From contig PEAN01000021.1 in NCBI GenBank assembly GCA_002753735.1, forward strand, positions 1 to 40,470: a stretch of DNA of 40,470 bases, given 5' to 3'. This document shows positions 26,145-36,287 of the stretch, piece after piece; position 1 is the stretch's first letter, and every line of letters starts with the position of its first letter. The stretch comes from Magnetococcales bacterium DCbin4. GTDB taxonomy: Bacteria; Pseudomonadota; Magnetococcia; Magnetococcales; UBA8363. The notes below the pieces were generated by a model that was given only the letters and a program-made list of their open reading frames with translations, was not told the DNA's origin and searched no databases. The translations under genes were made by a program, and so were the position numbers.

Positions 26145-28169
26145 TCAGAACCGTTCAAACGCATCATCCGATCCGGAGACGGTCAGTGCCGCAGAAGTGT
26201 TGCCCGTATCCGGTAACGATGTGGCAGCGGTTCTGCGGGCAGATTTGGGTGCGTTATGGCCAAGGGTTGTCTGTCCTCGATTGGCCGGACGGCTTTTGGG
26301 TGCGAGGGCGTGTGCTCTGCCGGTATTGAAAAAACTGATGGAAGTGGCGAGAATCTCTGCCTGGGATGACAACTCCTCCGCCGTGGCTGCCATTTCTTCC
26401 GAAGATCCCGCATTCTGCTGAATGGCCTGATCCAACTGTTGCAACGCCTGGTTGACCTGGGAAATCCCCTGATTCTGTTCCATGCTGGCGGCAGCGATTT
26501 CCTGAATCAGTTCGGCGGTCTTGCCAATGTCCGGCACCAGTTTGGCGATGATCACCCCCGCCTTTTCGGAAATCTGGACACTCGATGTCGACAAGTGGCT
26601 GATCTCTCCCGCCGCCTGTTGGCTCCGCTCCGCCAATTTGCGGACCTCGGCGGCAACCACCGCAAATCCTTTGCCGTGTTCTCCCGCCCGGGCCGCCTCA
26701 ATGGCGGCATTCAACGCCAACAGATTGGTCTGCCGGGAAATCTCTTCGATGATGGAAATCTTGCTGGCGATTTCTTTCATGGCACCCACCGCCTCGGTGA
26801 CTGCTGCACCGCCTTCCCGGGCGTCATTGGAAGCCCGGGTCGCAATCTTGTCGGTGGTCTGGGCATTGTCGGTATTCTGTTGAACATTGGCGCCCATCTC
26901 TTCCATGGCCGCCGAAGTCTCTTCGACGGAGGCTGCCTGTTCCGTCGTCGCCTGCGACAGTTTCTGGGCCGCATCCGACATTTCATTGCTGCTCACCGCC
27001 ACCTGTTGCGAGGCTCCCAGAATATCCCCAACCACATGCAGCAAACTGGTCTTCATTTCTTGAATGGCGTTGGTGATCATTCCCAATTCATCCCGGCGGT
27101 TCATGACGCACTGGACGGTCAGATCACCTTTACCAATTCGGGCGATATTGCCCATGCAGGCATGCAACGGTTGCACGATGTCCCGGGTCAGAAACCATCC
27201 CAGTGCGAACGAAAGAAGGAATCCGGAAATGCTGGCTGAAATAAGAAAAGTTACAGAATGTCCGTGGGCTTCATCGGCTCGTTTCATGGCCAAAGCCATG
27301 TCGGCACCGACCGCCTCCTCCAGTCGTTCCAAGGCGGAATGGAGTTTGTCTCCCGATTCATCCAGCCGACTCATGTTCTCTTTGGCCGACGTGAAGGCCG
27401 TGAGCGATTGATCTTTGCTTTCCATCAGCGCCAGACTGTCGGCGATGAATTCGGCATGGCCCTTCACGACCTCCGCGGGCAGATGTCCACGAATCGCCTC
27501 GAACGCCTCATTCAACGATTGGAATTCCTTGCGTAACTCCCCACTCCCTTCCTGGTTTCCAAGACGCGCATATCTTTCGACGATCCCCTTCTGTTCCCAC
27601 AGGATCGCCTTGGATTCCATGGCGGCATCGACCCGGGGATCCACGGGAATCTCCTTGGTGATCGCCGCCTCGTGACGTTGCAACAATTCCTTGATCTGCT
27701 TCGTGCGCGCATCGAACCGAACCATGATCGCAGAACTCGCTGCGTCCTTCGCCACATGCTCTTTCTGGGCCGCCATCAACCTTTGGGCCGTCTCGGTCAG
27801 CAGGGACAGGTCTCCCATGTGTTCCTTGGCCATGCGGGCAACGGTTACACCCCCCTTGGATTCCAGGGTGCGCAGGTTTTCTTCCAGCCCCGCCACCGAT
27901 TCACCATGACTCTTGGCAAGAGTTTCGTATTCTTTCGCCTCTTCGGCCAATAAAAATTCACCCATCAGGTCGCGCATGGAGACCATGTCGATGATCGCTT
28001 CCATGGAGGCATCCGCCAATGGAACCTGTTCCTCCATGATGAAGTCCGCTTCCCGCATCAATGCGTTCAGGCTTTGGATCCCCAGTCCCCCCATCAAGGC
28101 ACCAATCAGCGCCACCAACAGAAAACCGGTCAGTAGCTTGGTGCCAACCTTGATGTCGCCAATATGCAT
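26145..28169 (-). CDS. Methyl-accepting chemotaxis protein
   Basis: A 674-residue transducer. TM1 is at about residues 12-32, a large helical periplasmic sensor domain of ~270 residues follows, TM2 is at about 305-328, then a HAMP domain (about 329-382, with [21 protein letters not shown]). The coiled-coil signalling domain has the invariant hairpin tip [31 protein letters not shown] at about 475-505 (conserved E...[18 protein letters not shown]). The C-terminal ~60 residues are a Pro/Ala/Ser-rich linker ending in DDAFERF. There is no NWETF-type CheR pentapeptide. Ribosome site AGGAG is 6 bases before the ATG. No che gene is adjacent, so it works with a distant chemosensory array; the ligand is unknown. 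Confidence 0.93.
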
Positions 28170-28273: not shown

Positions 28274-31200
28274 TCAATTGGACTTTTCATCACGCAGATG
28301 AAACCATGATCCCGGTTCCCCGGACAATCGTCCCGTATCGATCTGATGACGGACGCGGTCGGTTTCGATTCGCCGCCAACCGCCTTCAATGACATCCCGG
28401 GAATCAAACTTCAGATGGTAGACCACGCAAACAGCGGTCAGAAGCATGATGATTCCGAACCCGAGTTCCCGCCCGCCCCATGTCCGAACGGGTTGAACGA
28501 TCCGGGATCCTTGTGAACAGCGACCGCAGCGAATGCAATCGACATGGTATTCATGTTTCGCCCCGAGGTCACAACGACGGAATACACGTTTTGGGACAAA
28601 GGGATTGAACCATGCCAGGCGGTTGCCCAAGGCCAGAAACGCCCCCATGGGACACCAATAACGGCACCAATAGCGGTAGAAGATCAGTGCCGCCGCCAGG
28701 CTGATTGCGGTCAGTGGCAGCAGACGGGGTTCCACGTCGAGACTGAAAAAACGTTGCATGGGGTTGAAGGAAGCCCAACGGGGGTCGTCGCCGATCCAGA
28801 CCGTGACCAGGATGAGGGCCAGCAACAGATATTTCCAGAACCGTCCCAGCCGTTCGAGGGTTGGGTGCAGCAGCGTATTCATCAGTCCCAGCCGCATTCC
28901 CAGTCGCGAAATGAGACTTTGAAGTGCGCCGAAGGGACAGATCAGACCACAGTGGACCGGTCCTGCGAGCAGGGCCGTGAGCAGGGCCACCCCTCCGATC
29001 AGCCACCAGGCTTGATGGTGTTCCCACCCGCCGACATGACCCAGGGTCAGGTTGACCAGGTCAAGTTCAGTCCAGGGAAGATTGAAGGCAAAGCCCGGGA
29101 TCGTCACCATCGCCACCTCAAGCAACAACCGTTCCCGGTCCCGGTTGCCAAAATATACGGCGGCAGCCAGCATCAACAGGATCATGGCAGACCAGAATGA
29201 CAGGGGGGGCCAGGACCAGCCCGGTCGGCGTTCCCCGGCAAGGGGGCGGCCAAAGGTTTGATGAAGCCCATGACGTGCCGTTTTTTCGATGGTACTGCGT
29301 GCCGCTTCGCGGGTGATGGTTGCCCCTGAAAGTCCGTCAAGTCCCATCAGGGCGAATTGGGGGTCGTCGATGCCGATCCCCTTGAACCGTTCCAGCCAGG
29401 GGAGGAGACCTTCGACATAGGCCGGGGTTTCCCGTGAATGAATCAGGCGGATGCCACGCAGAACGCCCCCTTTGTCGATGGCGATCAGAAGATGGAGGGG
29501 ACCCGCATATCCCCGGATGTCGGCGGCTACGGTCAATGAGGAGAGGATGACCGTATCGGGGTTGGAGGTACTGTTTTCTCTGCCGAGATGGTGTGGCCAG
29601 GGATCGGTCAGGGTTTGGAAATGGTGGGAACCGGACAGATCGGCCAGGAGGGATTCATTGAAGGTGAGCGACTGTTTTGTCGTTTGATGTCTGGCCAATG
29701 CGGTGAGGAGACCGACGCTGAGGGTGATGATCAGGAGGATCCGTATCGACCCCTGCCATGGAAAGGAGGGGGCACGGCCTGGTCCGGTTTTGTACCAGGA
29801 TTGGGGGAGATGGAGTGATCCCAGTGCCACCAACCCGAGCAGAATCATGAAGGATGCCAGATGTGCGGTCAGGGTCGTTCCCAGAACCGGGATCATGATC
29901 AAGCCCGCCACCCAGGCTCCCATGGCACCGCCCCAATGATCCCATGCCTGGACCAGGCCGCTGGTGACGCCGGTCAACCGTTGACGGCCATGGACCATTG
30001 CCACGCCCAGGGGAAAGACGGCACCGCCCATGATCCCCGTCAGCACGGCAAAGGAGTAATGCAGGGGTTCCTGCCATGGTTCTCCGCCCCATTCCAACCA
30101 TTGCGGCAGGAACCAACTGAATACTCCCATGCCCAGGTGTATTCCCGCCAATCCCAATGTGACCACGCCACGCTGGACCAACCATCGGCCGACCCAGGTG
30201 GCACCCACGACCAGACCGGTCATGAACAGGCCATTGATGAGGGCGATACGACTGAAGATCACGCCCACCTTCATTTGAAAGGAGAGGAGAATCACCAGTT
30301 GTATCGCCATGGTGACGAAGCCAAAGCTTCCCAGGGAAAAAAGGGCGGTATTTTTCCTGTCGCGCGACCGTCTTGCCGATCCCCGTCCATTGCGGGAGGC
30401 GATCAACATCCCTGCCACCAACAGGGATGGCAGTGCATGGGGCCAACCCTGCAAGGATTTGAGCCACGATAAAAACCTGCCTGACTCCGAGGCGGTGAAC
30501 CGGCTCCACAGGACCAGGTTGTAATAAAGGCTGGCGGGCACGGAATCGGTATTGATTTCGGCGTCGGGACGCGCCAGTCGTTCACGGGTGAACGCGATTC
30601 TTTTTGGGGGGAGCAGGTCGAGAAATGCGACTTCGGGGATGGAGGGAGCGGAAGGGTTCAGATGTGAAAAACGTTGATACAGGCGTGCCGGGTCTTGTTC
30701 CAGGGGGTGGTTGGCGGCACAGAAAAGCAATTCATCTCCTGGAACGACAACCCGATGTGAAAAAACCGCCCCCAGGGTTGCCCATACCGAAGCCCCGAGA
30801 CCGGCGACCTCCTGTCCCAGATAGTTGGCCGCACCGCCGATGCGGGTGCAGACGACACCCCCCGCCGACAACAGGGGAACAAGGGATTGGAAAAATTCCA
30901 GGGTATGAAAACGATTATGGCGCACACTCGTTGGATCACCCGTGTTGATTGAAACCAGGTCGAACGTTTCCCGTCCTGTTGCCTGGCGCACCCAAACCCG
31001 GCCATCCCCGAATGCCAGCTTGAGACGCGCATCAGCCAATGTGGCACGCTGTTGGGGCGGCAGATGGGGTTTGAGGGTTTCAAAACCCTGGGCATCCTCC
31101 AGTAGCAGTTGCAGATGTTGCACGGAAGAATCCAATAACGCCCGGGTGATGCCCTGATGGAATCCGCCGATCTGAAGCACTCGATCCGGGTGTTCCACCT

Positions 31201-32068
31201 GACTCAAGGTCCATGCGGTTTCAATCAGAGTTCGTGGTGGTGGCGGAAAAGAGGCGGTGATGGCTCCGTCGTTGATGGTCAGATGTTCGCGCTCCAATGT
31301 CGCCAGTTCCATCAGGCCATGTCGGGTTTCGACCCCTGCCACCCGTTGCAATCCGGGATGCAGGCTGTGAAAACGGAGGCCATCGAGCCAATCATTCACC
31401 CCGGTTCCGAAGGGGGTTAGAAACCACAGACCCGCAATTCCGCCCACGAAGCTCAACCCGCGGGACCATTTCGGCAGGTCATCGGCGAAACCAGGGGTGA
31501 TCCACGGCAGCAGCGACAACGGCAGCCACAAAAGCGCCACCATATGCAGCGGTCCCGGCCAAAACATGAATACCACGGTCGCCAATGCCGAACCCGTCAA
31601 TGCGCCCGCTGCCTCGGCAACAAAAAGGCGGGTGACGGGTTCTTCCTGACGTGATGAGACGGCGCGGCAGGCCAGGGGAAACAAAATTCCCAAAAAGAGG
31701 CCAATCGGTAGCACCAGCAGCGTCGTGGAAACAAACAATGCACCCAGTCCAGGCCATTGACCGACCGGTACCACCCACACCTGGCGCAGCAACCGGATCA
31801 CCACGATCAGCACCGCCAACAGCCATGGCAAACATGCCAACCATGGAACCCAACGCCAGGGGTTCCCCTTTGAAAAACCCCGTCGTTCAAGGATGATCGC
31901 CAGCCATCCCCCGACTCCGATCCAAAACAGCCAACTCCCCAGGAAAAGGCCGATGGCCAGTTCGTTGCCATGGAAAATCGATAAAAATTCACGAATCAAC
32001 ACTGCCTGGGCCACCTGGGCATACATCCCCAGCCACAGCATTGCTCCAACCGAAAAATCAATACGCAT
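28274..32068 (-). CDS. Fusion protein: spermidine-synthase-like membrane module + FMN-binding domain + NosR/NapH-type membrane ferredoxin
   Basis: 1,264 residues in three modules. (1) Residues 1-~775: two sets of transmembrane helices flank a Rossmann-like domain (~240-450) resembling spermidine synthase, as in fused membrane SpeE-like proteins. The SAM-loop reads G301-G-F-H-Q-G306 instead of GGGDGG, and the catalytic D-x-x-D-P reads N375-T-G-D-P. (2) About 840-935: an FMN_bind domain with LSGATIT (914-919), the motif that carries covalent FMN on the last Thr (T919) in NqrC/RnfG/NosR. (3) About 950-1225: a polyferredoxin membrane domain with CGLICPFGALQ (C1040, C1044), CRYWCPMGAF (C1135, C1139) and C1166...C1178-x2-C1181-x2-C1184. 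The start ATG has GGGGAG at 6 bp. It likely moves electrons across the membrane; partners are unknown. Confidence 0.8.
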   Translation of the reverse strand: MRIDFSVGAMLWLGMYAQVAQAVLIREFLSIFHGNELAIGLFLGSWLFWIGVGGWLAIILERRGFSKGNPWRWVPWLACLPWLLAVLIVVIRLLRQVWVVPVGQWPGLGALFVSTTLLVLPIGLFLGILFPLACRAVSSRQEEPVTRLFVAEAAGALTGSALATVVFMFWPGPLHMVALLWLPLSLLPWITPGFADDLPKWSRGLSFVGGIAGLWFLTPFGTGVNDWLDGLRFHSLHPGLQRVAGVETRHGLMELATLEREHLTINDGAITASFPPPPRTLIETAWTLSQVEHPDRVLQIGGFHQGITRALLDSSVQHLQLLLEDAQGFETLKPHLPPQQRATLADARLKLAFGDGRVWVRQATGRETFDLVSINTGDPTSVRHNRFHTLEFFQSLVPLLSAGGVVCTRIGGAANYLGQEVAGLGASVWATLGAVFSHRVVVPGDELLFCAANHPLEQDPARLYQRFSHLNPSAPSIPEVAFLDLLPPKRIAFTRERLARPDAEINTDSVPASLYYNLVLWSRFTASESGRFLSWLKSLQGWPHALPSLLVAGMLIASRNGRGSARRSRDRKNTALFSLGSFGFVTMAIQLVILLSFQMKVGVIFSRIALINGLFMTGLVVGATWVGRWLVQRGVVTLGLAGIHLGMGVFSWFLPQWLEWGGEPWQEPLHYSFAVLTGIMGGAVFPLGVAMVHGRQRLTGVTSGLVQAWDHWGGAMGAWVAGLIMIPVLGTTLTAHLASFMILLGLVALGSLHLPQSWYKTGPGRAPSFPWQGSIRILLIITLSVGLLTALARHQTTKQSLTFNESLLADLSGSHHFQTLTDPWPHHLGRENSTSNPDTVILSSLTVAADIRGYAGPLHLLIAIDKGGVLRGIRLIHSRETPAYVEGLLPWLERFKGIGIDDPQFALMGLDGLSGATITREAARSTIEKTARHGLHQTFGRPLAGERRPGWSWPPLSFWSAMILLMLAAAVYFGNRDRERLLLEVAMVTIPGFAFNLPWTELDLVNLTLGHVGGWEHHQAWWLIGGVALLTALLAGPVHCGLICPFGALQSLISRLGMRLGLMNTLLHPTLERLGRFWKYLLLALILVTVWIGDDPRWASFNPMQRFFSLDVEPRLLPLTAISLAAALIFYRYWCRYWCPMGAFLALGNRLAWFNPFVPKRVFRRCDLGAKHEYHVDCIRCGRCSQGSRIVQPVRTWGGRELGFGIIMLLTAVCVVYHLKFDSRDVIEGGWRRIETDRVRHQIDTGRLSGEPGSWFHLRDEKSN

Positions 32069-32300: not shown

Positions 32301-32930
32301 ATGATGGATGAACCGATACGCCCAAAAGAAGAATTGTTTGTCACGGTCAGTGAGGCATCGCGTATTTTAGGTGTTTCAAAACGGACGATTCACAATTGGT
32401 TGGAGCGTGGCACCTTGAAATTTTGGAAAACCCCGGGCGGTCATGTGCGCATTCCGGAAACTTCGGTCAATGCACTGTTGGAAGACCGGCACAGGCAGAT
32501 GGAACTCCAGGAACGACAATCGGCGTGCTCCATTCTCATCGTCGAAGATGACCCGATTGTCATCGATTATTATGAAACCAGTATGAATCACTGGAATTTG
32601 CCGATCCGATTGAATATTGCGGAAAACGGGTTTCAAGGATTGATTCAATTGGTCAAGGAACGGCCCGACCTGATTGTGACCGATCTGCGGATGCAGGGGA
32701 TGGATGGTTTTGAGTTGATTCGTAATCTTCAAATGCGTGATGACTTGAAAGATATTCGCATTGTGGTGATTTCTGTATTACAGCCACATGAAATCCAGGA
32801 AAAGGGAGGTTTGCCGGCCGGGATCCCCGTGTTTGGCAAGCCCCCTCCCCTGGAACAAATCAGGAAAATTGTCATGGAGATTCTAAGGTCACGGAATCGA
32901 AGGATGTTGCGCTTTTCCGGGACGGAATGA
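32301..32930 (+). CDS. Response regulator with N-terminal excisionase/MerR-like HTH and receiver domain
   Basis: A 209-residue protein with an unusual order: the DNA-binding domain comes first. Residues 12-60 are a winged HTH of the excisionase/MerR type (TVSEASRILGVSKRTIHNW, then GGHVRIPE). The receiver domain spans ~77-200, with the acidic pair E82-D83-D84 in ILIVEDDP, phosphoacceptor D128 in IVTDLRMQGMDG and the conserved K180 in FGKPPP. The kinase partner is probably the hybrid kinase that starts 58 bp downstream. Ribosome site AGGAA is 5 bases before ATG 32301; an ATG at 32304 is equally good. No output domain other than the HTH is present. Confidence 0.88.
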   Translation: MMDEPIRPKEELFVTVSEASRILGVSKRTIHNWLERGTLKFWKTPGGHVRIPETSVNALLEDRHRQMELQERQSACSILIVEDDPIVIDYYETSMNHWNLPIRLNIAENGFQGLIQLVKERPDLIVTDLRMQGMDGFELIRNLQMRDDLKDIRIVVISVLQPHEIQEKGGLPAGIPVFGKPPPLEQIRKIVMEILRSRNRRMLRFSGTE

Positions 32931-32987: not shown

Positions 32988-35900
32988 ATGAACAGATCGA
33001 ATCAATACAATAGTACAAGGAAGTTGGGTCTTGTCTACTTTTCTATTATTGTACTTGTGTTCATGGCAATCAACACCTGGTTTACGATTGTCGATCATCA
33101 GGAGGTGATAGTAGAGACCTATCATTATCAAATCTCGGAGGAGCTGGCGTTTATTGGACGGTTGATCCGGGATGCCGTGGTTCGGGGGGATGATGTCAAC
33201 GTTAACGAAACATTGGTCCTGTGGGGCGCGGCGAGACATGAAATTGTTTATATCGTTCTGAGGCCCTCCAACAGCGATTTCCCTACGGTCAGTTATCGAC
33301 GTGAAGGGCCGTTTCAGCGGATGCAGGTCCATCAGGAAATCATCTCCATGAATGGCCGGGAACTGTTCCAGCTGGAAGTCGGGCACGATCTGGATGCCAT
33401 CGATCATGCCGTTCACAACGTGGAAACGGAAATGGGTCTGCTGACTTTTTTGTGGACGGGGACCATCGGTTTGGTTTTATGGCTGGTGTTGCGTGTCCTG
33501 GCAACCCGTCCCTTGGAACAGGAAATCCTCCGTCGGGAACTGGTCGAACGGACGCTGCTCCAGGCTCAGAAAGACCACCACATCATATTTGAATCGGTGG
33601 GGGCGATGATCTGGTTTTTGGATGATACCTTTCATATCCGACAAGCCAATCGACTGGCGGCGGCGTTGACCGGTCATGAGCCGGAAGAGGTGATTGGCAA
33701 GACCGCTATGGATCTGTTTCCCGGTGCGTTTGCGGAAAAATTCCATGCGGACAATCAAAAGATCATGGAAACCGCCCTCCCTTTGATGGACATCATCGAA
33801 TCGGGACCCGTTCTTTCTGGAGAAATTCACTGGTTCCGCACCGACAAGGTACCCTACCTGGATGATGATGGTCGGGTCGTTGGCATTACGGTTATCAGCA
33901 AGGACATTTCCGATCTGAAACACATGGAGGCCCGTGTCAGGGAAAGTGAGGAGCGTTATCGGCAGCTTTTTGAAAACAGTCCCGATGGCCTTCTGATCGC
34001 TGATTTTGAAACGCAACTGATCGAAGTTGGCAATCAGAGGATGGCCAGCCTGTTGGGTTATAACAGTAACAAACTGCCTGGTCTGGGGGTGAAGGATATT
34101 TCCCAAAAATTTATTGAACTTCAGGAAACGTTGGAACGACTTGCCCAGTTGGGTCATTTACAGATTCCTTTGATTGAAATCCAGAAAAAGGATGGTGGGG
34201 TGCTTCCAGTGGAACTCACCATGTGGACGTTCTGGGAGCATGAACGGATGAAGTTTACCGGCCGGTTTCGCGATATCAGCCGCAGACTCGCCATCGAGGA
34301 AACCATTCGTGCCCTGAATTATCGCCATGAACTGATTCTGGGTGCCGCCGGAGAAGGGATTCACGGTTTGGATCGTATGGGAGTCACGACGTTCGTCAAT
34401 CCGGCAGCGGCACGCATGTTGGGCCGGATGGAACAGGAGCTCGTCGGGCGGGATAGCCATGATCTGATTCATCACAGCCAACCTGATGGATCGCCCTATT
34501 CCAGGGAACGTTGTCCGATCCTGACCACCATTCGGGATGGTCGCGTGCGTCATGTCAGTGATGAAGTCTTTTTGCGGGGAGATGGCACCTCTTTTCCCGT
34601 GGAATATGTCGTTTCCCCCATTATGGAACAGGGTGAAATCGCGGGGGCGGTCATAGTTTTTCGTGATATTTCAGAACGCCTGGAGATGGAACGGGCGCTC
34701 CGGGCCAGCCAGGAACGGTTCAAACGGCTTTCCGACTCGGCGTTTGAAGGCATCGCCATCATTGAGGATGGGATCATTCGGGATGGCAATACTGCGTTTG
34801 CGACCTTGTTCGGTTGCGAACTTGATGAAATGAAGGGGACTCATTTTCTGCAATGGACCGCCCCGGAGGATCGGGAAAAGGTCGAGGAATATGCGCGTAA
34901 CGGATACGCCCAACCTTATGAAATCGTGGGGTTGAGAAAAAATGGAACATCCATATTCCTCGAAATGCACGGCAGCGACACCCAACTGGATGGAAAAACC
35001 GTCAGAATTATTGCCATGCGCGATATTACCGCACGCAAACAGGGGGAAGCGGATCTCAAGGAGGCGCATGAGGCTTTGCGGATCGCCAAGGAGGCGGCTG
35101 AGGAGGCCAACCGGGCCAAGAGCCGTTTCCTTGCCGCCATGAGCCATGACATCCGAACCCCCATGAACGCGGTTTTGGGGATGGGAGAACTGTTGGCCGA
35201 CAGCGGATTGAACGACACCCAGCGCGGATATCTCAATACCCTCAATCGGGCCGGGGAGACCCTGCTGGCACTGATCAACGACATTCTCGACCTGTCCAAA
35301 ATCGAAGCCGATCAACTGAAATTGGAGGTCATACCCTTCAATCTGCATGACCTGGCTTCGGGAATCCTGGAAATATTCAGTCTTGGGGTCCATGAGAAGG
35401 GATTGAATCTGGTTTTGGAGATGGATACCGCCAAGGGATGGATTGTCCTGGGGGATCGGGACCGGTTGCGCCAGGTATTGATGAATCTGATTGCCAACGC
35501 CATCAAGTTTACCGAGTCTGGTTCCGTGATCGTATCGGTACGGCGAGGGGAAGGGGGGTTCGTGAACTTCCAGGTGATCGATACCGGCATTGGCATTCCG
35601 GAAGACAAACTGGAATCGATCTTCGATCCGTTTTGTCAGGGAGAACGCTCCATTACCCGCCGTTATGGTGGAACGGGATTGGGGTTGACCATTTGCCACC
35701 GTCTGGTCCAGCTCATGGGGGGAACCATCAGGGTGGAAAGTCAACCCGGGGTGGGCAGCCGGTTTTATTTTTCCGCCCATTTGCCGGTGACGGAACCGGG
35801 TTCATTTCAGAAACGGCTGCCTTGTCTGGAGTCTTACCATGTTTTGAATCCAATATCCAACGTATCGTCAAACGACGGATTGAAGATCCTCTTGGCCGAT

Positions 35901-36287
35901 GACGCCGAAGACAACCGAATCGTCATCGAAGCTTTTCTGTCGCAGACCAACCACCGCCTGACGCTGGTGGAAAATGGTCAAATGGCCCTGGAACGGTTCC
36001 AGGAGGCGGCGTTTGACCTGGTGCTCATGGATATCGAAATGCCAGTCATGGATGGGTTGACGGCGACGCGAAACATTCGTTCCTGGGAACTGATCGAAGG
36101 ACAACCACGGACCCCCATCATTGCCTTGACCGCCCATGCCATGAAGGAGGAATCGCAACGTATTCTGGAAGCGGGCTGTGATTTTCATTTGACCAAGCCG
36201 ATCCGCAAGAAAAAATTGTTGAACCTGCTCCATTGTCTCATCAAAGGAGACCGACTTGAGGAGGGAGCCGACGATGATGACGCATGA
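32988..36287 (+). CDS. Hybrid sensor histidine kinase with four PAS domains and a receiver
   Basis: 1,099 residues. TM1 at about 13-33, a ~110-residue periplasmic domain, TM2 at about 151-170, then four PAS domains at about 198-310, 322-432, 445-565 and 576-685. HisKA carries phosphorylatable H720 in AAMSHDIRTPMN. The HATPase has N-box NLIANAIKF, G1 DTGIGIP and G2 GGTGLGL. A receiver domain (about 965-1085) has D1015 in LMDIEMPVMDG and K1070. The N-terminal ribosome site is a G-run 3 bases before the ATG, unusual in being so close. The last codons overlap the start of the binding-protein gene, indicating coupling. It may read a periplasmic ligand, possibly through that protein. Confidence 0.93.
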   Translation: MNRSNQYNSTRKLGLVYFSIIVLVFMAINTWFTIVDHQEVIVETYHYQISEELAFIGRLIRDAVVRGDDVNVNETLVLWGAARHEIVYIVLRPSNSDFPTVSYRREGPFQRMQVHQEIISMNGRELFQLEVGHDLDAIDHAVHNVETEMGLLTFLWTGTIGLVLWLVLRVLATRPLEQEILRRELVERTLLQAQKDHHIIFESVGAMIWFLDDTFHIRQANRLAAALTGHEPEEVIGKTAMDLFPGAFAEKFHADNQKIMETALPLMDIIESGPVLSGEIHWFRTDKVPYLDDDGRVVGITVISKDISDLKHMEARVRESEERYRQLFENSPDGLLIADFETQLIEVGNQRMASLLGYNSNKLPGLGVKDISQKFIELQETLERLAQLGHLQIPLIEIQKKDGGVLPVELTMWTFWEHERMKFTGRFRDISRRLAIEETIRALNYRHELILGAAGEGIHGLDRMGVTTFVNPAAARMLGRMEQELVGRDSHDLIHHSQPDGSPYSRERCPILTTIRDGRVRHVSDEVFLRGDGTSFPVEYVVSPIMEQGEIAGAVIVFRDISERLEMERALRASQERFKRLSDSAFEGIAIIEDGIIRDGNTAFATLFGCELDEMKGTHFLQWTAPEDREKVEEYARNGYAQPYEIVGLRKNGTSIFLEMHGSDTQLDGKTVRIIAMRDITARKQGEADLKEAHEALRIAKEAAEEANRAKSRFLAAMSHDIRTPMNAVLGMGELLADSGLNDTQRGYLNTLNRAGETLLALINDILDLSKIEADQLKLEVIPFNLHDLASGILEIFSLGVHEKGLNLVLEMDTAKGWIVLGDRDRLRQVLMNLIANAIKFTESGSVIVSVRRGEGGFVNFQVIDTGIGIPEDKLESIFDPFCQGERSITRRYGGTGLGLTICHRLVQLMGGTIRVESQPGVGSRFYFSAHLPVTEPGSFQKRLPCLESYHVLNPISNVSSNDGLKILLADDAEDNRIVIEAFLSQTNHRLTLVENGQMALERFQEAAFDLVLMDIEMPVMDGLTATRNIRSWELIEGQPRTPIIALTAHAMKEESQRILEAGCDFHLTKPIRKKKLLNLLHCLIKGDRLEEGADDDDA

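Follow-up and report, generated by a model that had tools for sequence, protein, structure and literature searches.

A fused membrane redox protein of the Magnetococcales and its putative partner, a second clade of AmmeMemoRadiSam radical-SAM enzymes

The window analysed here is the whole stretch of 40,470 nucleotides from Magnetococcales bacterium DCbin4 (assembly GCA_002753735.1, contig PEAN01000021.1). On its minus strand it carries a gene for a large membrane protein, hereafter the fusion, in which a spermidine-synthase-like Rossmann domain (the head) is joined to a flavin mononucleotide (FMN)-binding domain and to a NapH/NosR-type iron-sulfur (Fe-S) module. The new result is its partner, which sequence comparison indicates to be a distinct clade of AmmeMemoRadiSam radical S-adenosylmethionine (SAM) enzymes together with an AMMECR1/MEMO protein. 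We consider it probable that the fusion serves an exported AmmeMemoRadiSam system as its membrane partner and feeds it electrons through FMN. This proposal joins a linkage and an architecture read from the sequence to a predicted export and topology, and to a direction of electron flow, an acceptor and a handling of SAM that we infer. G, C and L numbers are our handles for genomes, contigs and loci, the window's own genome being G000.

Putative partner genes of the fusion

Among the 41 genomes of our sample of the order (G000 and 40 relatives), the fusion protein was found in 11. It is full length in G000, G007, G008, G017 and G020, the G007 copy being 62% identical to the window protein over its whole length; the others are broken by contig ends, which fall within the gene in G023, G039, G034, G019 and G028. 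The gene of G013 (L036, G013:C57, near 57340-58175) is broken instead by a frame change near residue 990. In three genomes (G008, G017 and G034), a radical-SAM gene comes immediately downstream of the fusion gene and is itself followed by a gene for AMMECR1 or AMMECR1/MEMO. By NCBIfam, these linked genes encode AmmeMemoRadiSam proteins, with scores above the cut-off, and the linked radical-SAM enzyme is related to the activases of pyruvate formate-lyase (PFL) and benzylsuccinate synthase. The set of the window's own genome (L051; radical SAM 382, protein A 166 and protein B 223 bits, all above the NCBIfam cut-offs) is located on another contig (G000:C75), and for this reason the partners were invisible to an earlier note on this DNA, made from the letters of the stretch alone.

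The order possesses two kinds of these radical-SAM enzymes: clade 1, present in nearly all genomes, and clade 2, present in 11 and showing 64-79% identity to the G008 copy. Ten genomes have both the fusion and clade 2, two have one of them alone, and 29 have neither (p 1e-7, ignoring kinship). Within genus g1, G000 and G007 possess both genes, and the other genomes possess neither. The nearly ubiquitous clade-1 enzyme shows no such link to the fusion. In the radical-SAM tree, clade 2 stands apart from clade 1 (support 100/100), and the clade-2 enzymes of the order join those from planctomycete loci that have a fusion (95/91).

Outside the window's own phylum, one phylum was sampled, the Planctomycetota. 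Full fusions are encoded there in G536 and G417, in the gene order radical SAM, small twin-arginine translocation (Tat) peptide, AmmeMemo, fusion. The same order, with a contig break, is observed in G448, whose fusion is cut by a contig end, as is that of G521. The phylum also contains many unfused genes covering the first 760 residues. These unfused head genes adjoin or lie near a radical-SAM gene in L107, L108, L112, L122, L168-L171 and L173-L177, and lie within about 3 kb of one in L115 and L116. At L168, a separate FMN-NapH gene, the radical-SAM gene and the head gene are consecutive, with AmmeMemo nearby on the opposite strand, so that this row presents the parts of the fusion as neighbouring genes. 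The separate FMN-NapH protein of this locus (G409:C59) has an extra N-terminal membrane domain, DsbD/UreH-like by eye. Over the phylum, a head gene is present in 21 of the 22 clade-2 genomes versus 6 of the 127 others (p 3e-19, ignoring kinship), clade 2 being delimited at 420 bits, a line picked after the scores were known. In four of those six (G431, G435, G458 and G528), the head gene is adjacent to or near a lower-scoring or truncated radical-SAM gene.

The earlier note had proposed a search for other genomes with the same fusion and for its neighbours there, and both were found, in the same order and in the Planctomycetota. Among 398 genomes sampled over the window's phylum, the complete fusion is confined to this order. 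A single-protein search of 84,980 species genomes returned one weak planctomycete locus only, the viral contigs searched contained no fusion, and the plasmid search gave nothing beyond generic Fe-S/FMN matches.

Export signals and the small Tat peptide

Export signals were assigned by motif, without a trained predictor. The clade-2 enzymes of the Planctomycetota mostly begin with a Tat start (e.g., RRDLFRL, RREFLKA, RRQFLKS), followed by a segment such as KEAMHYKKL immediately before the first Cys motif; a few clade-2 proteins (L168, L149, L150) have a Sec-like hydrophobic start instead. The enzyme begins at the Cys motif in the order and in those planctomycete loci that bear a fusion, and there a small separate open reading frame (ORF), which has a Tat signal and ends in Gly, is found between the radical-SAM and AmmeMemo/AMMECR1 genes. 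This was observed in 14 of the 14 loci inspected (G000, G007, G008, G013, G017, G019, G020, G023, G034, G035, G039, G536, G417 and G448; in G019, the radical-SAM side alone was checked). The ends of some of these peptides resemble LKEADFYRPHDLAG, and for the copies scanned no family of their own turned up in Pfam or NCBIfam. They are divergent, so that the DNA pattern EADFYxPHD located the peptide in G000, G007 and G019 only. A separate Tat ORF beside an enzyme starting at its Cys motif reads as a split gene, whose small product would escort the enzyme; hitch-hiking Tat partners are known (PMC10924467).

By motif, most clade-2 loci carry a Tat signal on the enzyme or on its split-off partner, and because of this the clade-2 enzyme appears to be exported from the cytoplasm. 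TatC is encoded in the same genome as the fusion. The AmmeMemo protein also has an N-terminal signal in most fusion or clade-2 loci. Clade-1 enzymes mostly have no Tat signal, and MEMO proteins devoid of a signal are found alongside, so that chemistry of the same kind likely takes place in two compartments. After its last helix, the fusion ends in most relatives with a motif, GRLSxxEAxWY, that comes near the EAxxY segment of the exported enzymes; in G536, the last helix and the tail are encoded by a separate small gene. The tail might be a docking site for the radical-SAM enzyme.

Architecture of the fused protein

The gene is a single uninterrupted frame of 1,264 codons, starting at 32068 and ending at 28274 (Table 1). 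The earlier note had read it as three modules in one frame, and the open frame, the Pfam domains and the full-length relatives all bear this out; its inventory was incomplete, leaving aside 21 predicted helices and the second multi-helix stretch (residues 543-757). An assembly join can be ruled out as the origin of the fusion, because full-length relatives in two phyla have the identical module order. Pfam recognizes Spermine_synth (PF01564, residues 289-408, E 5e-9, 36.4 bits for a cut-off of 22.9), FMN_bind (PF04205, residues 853-926, E 5e-7, 30.7 bits for a cut-off of 22) and two stretches of Fer4_5 (PF12801, the best at residues 1019-1061, E 7e-9, 36 bits for a cut-off of 22). Weaker NCBIfam matches, to polyamine aminopropyltransferase, NosR, NapH and RnfG models, all stay under the full-length cut-offs. 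Compared with solved structures by phmmer, the Rossmann part retrieves spermidine synthases (E 7e-12) and the FMN part, weakly, RnfG-type chains.

Table 1. Features of the fusion gene (positions in the window) and the small Tat peptide gene of the same genome
Feature	Position	Strand	Basis
Whole gene, 1,264-residue membrane fusion protein	28274..32068	-	Single open frame, full-length relatives
First membrane block, seven predicted helices, residues 7-220	31409..32050	-	Family-averaged hydropathy, positive-inside rule
Spermidine-synthase-like Rossmann domain, residues 225-540, predicted outside cytoplasm	30449..31396	-	PF01564, phmmer, topology
GGFHQG in place of GGGDGG, residues 301-306, His304 at the Asp position	31151..31168	-	Alignment, 30 rows
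N375-T-G-D378-P in place of D-x-x-D-P, first Asp lost	30932..30946	-	Alignment
NRFHTLEFF, hallmark segment NRx[YFH]Tx[ED]F, retained by most relatives	30890..30916	-	Alignment
Second membrane block, seven predicted helices, residues 543-757	29798..30442	-	Hydropathy
Helix 15 and FMN_bind domain, residues 774-954, predicted outside	29207..29749	-	PF04205, topology
SGATIT flavinylation motif, residues 914-919	29312..29329	-	Conserved wherever region present
NapH/NosR-type membrane Fe-S module, residues 956-1200	28469..29203	-	PF12801, NCBIfam NosR/NapH matches
CGLICPFG, first Cx3CP motif, residues 1040-1047	28928..28951	-	13/13 relatives
CRYWCPMG, second Cx3CP motif, residues 1135-1142	28643..28666	-	13/13 relatives
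C1166 and CIRCGRC (residues 1178-1184), probable additional [4Fe-4S] site	28517..28573	-	CxxCxxC in 13/13 relatives
C-terminal tail, residues 1220-1264, predicted outside; degenerate GRLSGEPGSWF here	28277..28411	-	Motif comparison
Small Tat peptide gene	L051:3077-3292 (G000:C75)	-	Between radical SAM and AmmeMemo/AMMECR1

The head was compared in an alignment of 30 rows, fused and unfused relatives together. The two replacements pointed out in the earlier note, GGFHQG and Asn375, are both present, and the loss of catalytic residues that it deduced extends to nearly all relatives. The Asp of GGGDGG is not retained; nearly all rows have also lost the first Asp of D-x-x-D-P, with Asp standing there in a few planctomycete ones, and the second is often retained as Asp or Glu. 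An active spermidine synthase is rejected in view of the missing catalytic residues and, because these Asp residues are lost, aminopropyl transfer by the head of this family is very unlikely. In spermidine synthases, the Glu of the VExD strand binds ribose. It is retained in many unfused rows, as GDG or DGR is widely, and it is lost in the window copy (LLED); for this reason nucleoside binding seems plausible for the family and doubtful for the window copy. The identity between G000 and G007 is even across the four modules (61-64%), hence the head is decaying no faster than the redox half. A single-sequence AlphaFold model of the Rossmann domain reached a mean predicted local distance difference test score (pLDDT) of only 40.

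The redox half is under clear constraint, since among the relatives checked the FMN motif is present wherever its region is, and both Cx3CP motifs and CxxCxxC are retained in 13 of 13. This conservation supports the earlier note in its description of a membrane redox protein whose FMN and Fe-S motifs are kept. The window motif conforms to the [ST]GATx[ST] pattern of NapH-like flavinylated systems, and ApbE is encoded in the genome (G000:C44). Family-averaged hydropathy predicts seven helices before the Rossmann domain and seven after it; helix 15 then leads to the FMN domain, beyond which six further helices follow. With eight helices between them, the Rossmann and FMN domains are placed on one side, and in both phyla short loops on the side predicted to be inner have the higher Lys/Arg counts. 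Such FMN-binding domains are extracytosolic (PMC8238504), which would leave the Fe-S motifs inside and the C-terminal tail outside. The Rossmann domain, the FMN domain and the tail are accordingly predicted outside the cytoplasm, the helix 13/14 pair being the least certain part of the prediction.

Around the gene, identifications are by eye. A methyl-accepting chemotaxis protein gene (26145-28169, minus strand) lies directly downstream on the same strand. The divergent upstream neighbour (32301-32930, plus strand) combines a MerR/excisionase-like helix-turn-helix with a response-regulator receiver domain, and beyond it comes a large PAS hybrid histidine kinase (32988-36287). The fusion of G017 (L034) also has a chemoreceptor-like frame, on its upstream side.

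Proposed role, alternatives and known systems

A cytoplasmic AmmeMemoRadiSam enzyme draws SAM and electrons from the cytoplasm; an exported enzyme has to obtain the two in another way. In many Planctomycetota, the PFL-activase-like clade-2 enzyme would be taken across the membrane by a Tat signal of its own, and in the window's order by the small separate Tat peptide; it would then work with the AMMECR1/MEMO protein outside the cytoplasm. Electrons may pass from the Fe-S centres on the cytoplasmic side to the outer FMN, and from there to the radical-SAM enzyme or to its MEMO partner; such delivery is most likely the role of the fusion. The outer spermidine-synthase-like domain, rather than transferring aminopropyl groups, would bind SAM, its decarboxylated form or one of its products, or else hold the complex together, and we propose with less assurance that it supplies SAM or captures its products. 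The full version, in which radical-SAM chemistry takes place outside the cytoplasm and a single membrane protein provides it with electrons, by way of Fe-S and FMN, and with SAM, by way of the membrane blocks and an outward, SAM-binding head, is more tentative, and we hold it for a possibility rather than an expectation.

Several points weigh against this role. No extracytoplasmic supply of SAM is known. The window's own genome has the fusion gene unlinked to the radical-SAM set, and the glycine loop, the ribose-binding Glu and the tail motif of the window copy are all degenerate. G035 has a clade-2 enzyme with no fusion detected and G028 shows the reverse, while two planctomycetes, G472 and G520 (the latter with a Tat-like start, L156), have Tat-bearing radical-SAM enzymes and no head protein. 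AmmeMemo proteins with an apparent signal also occur in relatives devoid of both fusion and clade 2 (L052, L053, L056, L058, L066). The role in an exported system is drawn from comparing sequences, and the FMN/NapH half could serve a different acceptor. One may picture a general NapH/NosR-like, quinol-linked carrier for another outer acceptor (a metal, a cytochrome or MEMO iron), with the head as a simple scaffold and the radical-SAM association as a shared co-inheritance. NapH-like flavinylated systems do serve many oxidoreductases modularly (PMC8238504), MEMO1 binds iron (PMC11081632), and the Geobacter 'spermidine synthase' GSU2502, likened by name only, is listed beside omcT/omcS (PMC10599522). 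However, the repeated direct adjacency to clade 2 and the co-gain or co-loss with it in two phyla, while nearly ubiquitous clade 1 stays unlinked in the order, speak against such a carrier, which we regard as unlikely.

The small Tat peptide could itself be the substrate of the radical-SAM enzyme, the fusion helping to make or reduce a modified exported peptide. Its constant C-terminal Gly and the resemblance of the enzyme to glycyl-radical activases would suit this idea, but sister proteins bear the Tat signal and a similar EAxxY segment on the enzyme itself, which better fits an escort or a split N-terminus; we give a substrate little credit. Least probable of all is the membrane sensor with a SAM- or polyamine-sensing head put forward in the earlier note. 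It would account for a fold retained after its catalytic residues were lost, but in the loci inspected no regulator or polyamine gene is repeatedly linked, the links being to the AmmeMemoRadiSam enzyme, AMMECR1/MEMO and the small Tat peptide, and a cytoplasmic sensor is made unlikely by a head predicted to face outside. A membrane partner delivering electrons to the exported enzyme is the role that we prefer. If true, it raises the question of how SAM would reach the outside. MEMO1, whose conservation extends to humans, has a primary function described as unknown (PMC11081632); a second, apparently exported form of the bacterial radical-SAM system to which MEMO1 relatives belong, with a dedicated membrane redox partner, offers a direct handle on what the system needs, namely electrons and perhaps SAM.

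Literature searches on the fusion, or on AMMECR1/MEMO1 with radical SAM, returned nothing relevant, and the open-access papers searched, an incomplete collection, contained no phrase for an exported or periplasmic radical-SAM enzyme. Among known systems, the NapH-like flavinylated ones (Meheust et al. 2021, PMC8238504; NosR, PceC) likewise have an outer FMN domain with an ApbE-type motif and a membrane NapH part with two Cx3CP motifs. The fusion differs from them by an additional 750-residue membrane and spermidine-synthase-like block, and by its radical-SAM/MEMO partner set; in a search of the main text of that survey, neither radical SAM nor MEMO nor spermidine synthase turned up. With spermidine synthases (PF01564), the head shares the Rossmann fold by sequence (E 7e-12) and departs from them by lacking the GGGDGG Asp and the first Asp of D-x-x-D-P. 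The fused MFS/spermidine synthase family (NF037959) also has membrane helices flanking a spermidine-synthase-like domain, whereas the fusion scores only 13.2 bits for a cut-off of 40 and carries FMN and Fe-S modules. Finally, the linked radical-SAM enzyme and AMMECR1/MEMO protein match AmmeMemoRadiSam (TIGR04335, TIGR04336, TIGR04337) above cut-off; the linked set differs in forming a second paralogous clade, in bearing Tat-type signals, and in being accompanied by a small Tat peptide and by a membrane redox partner.

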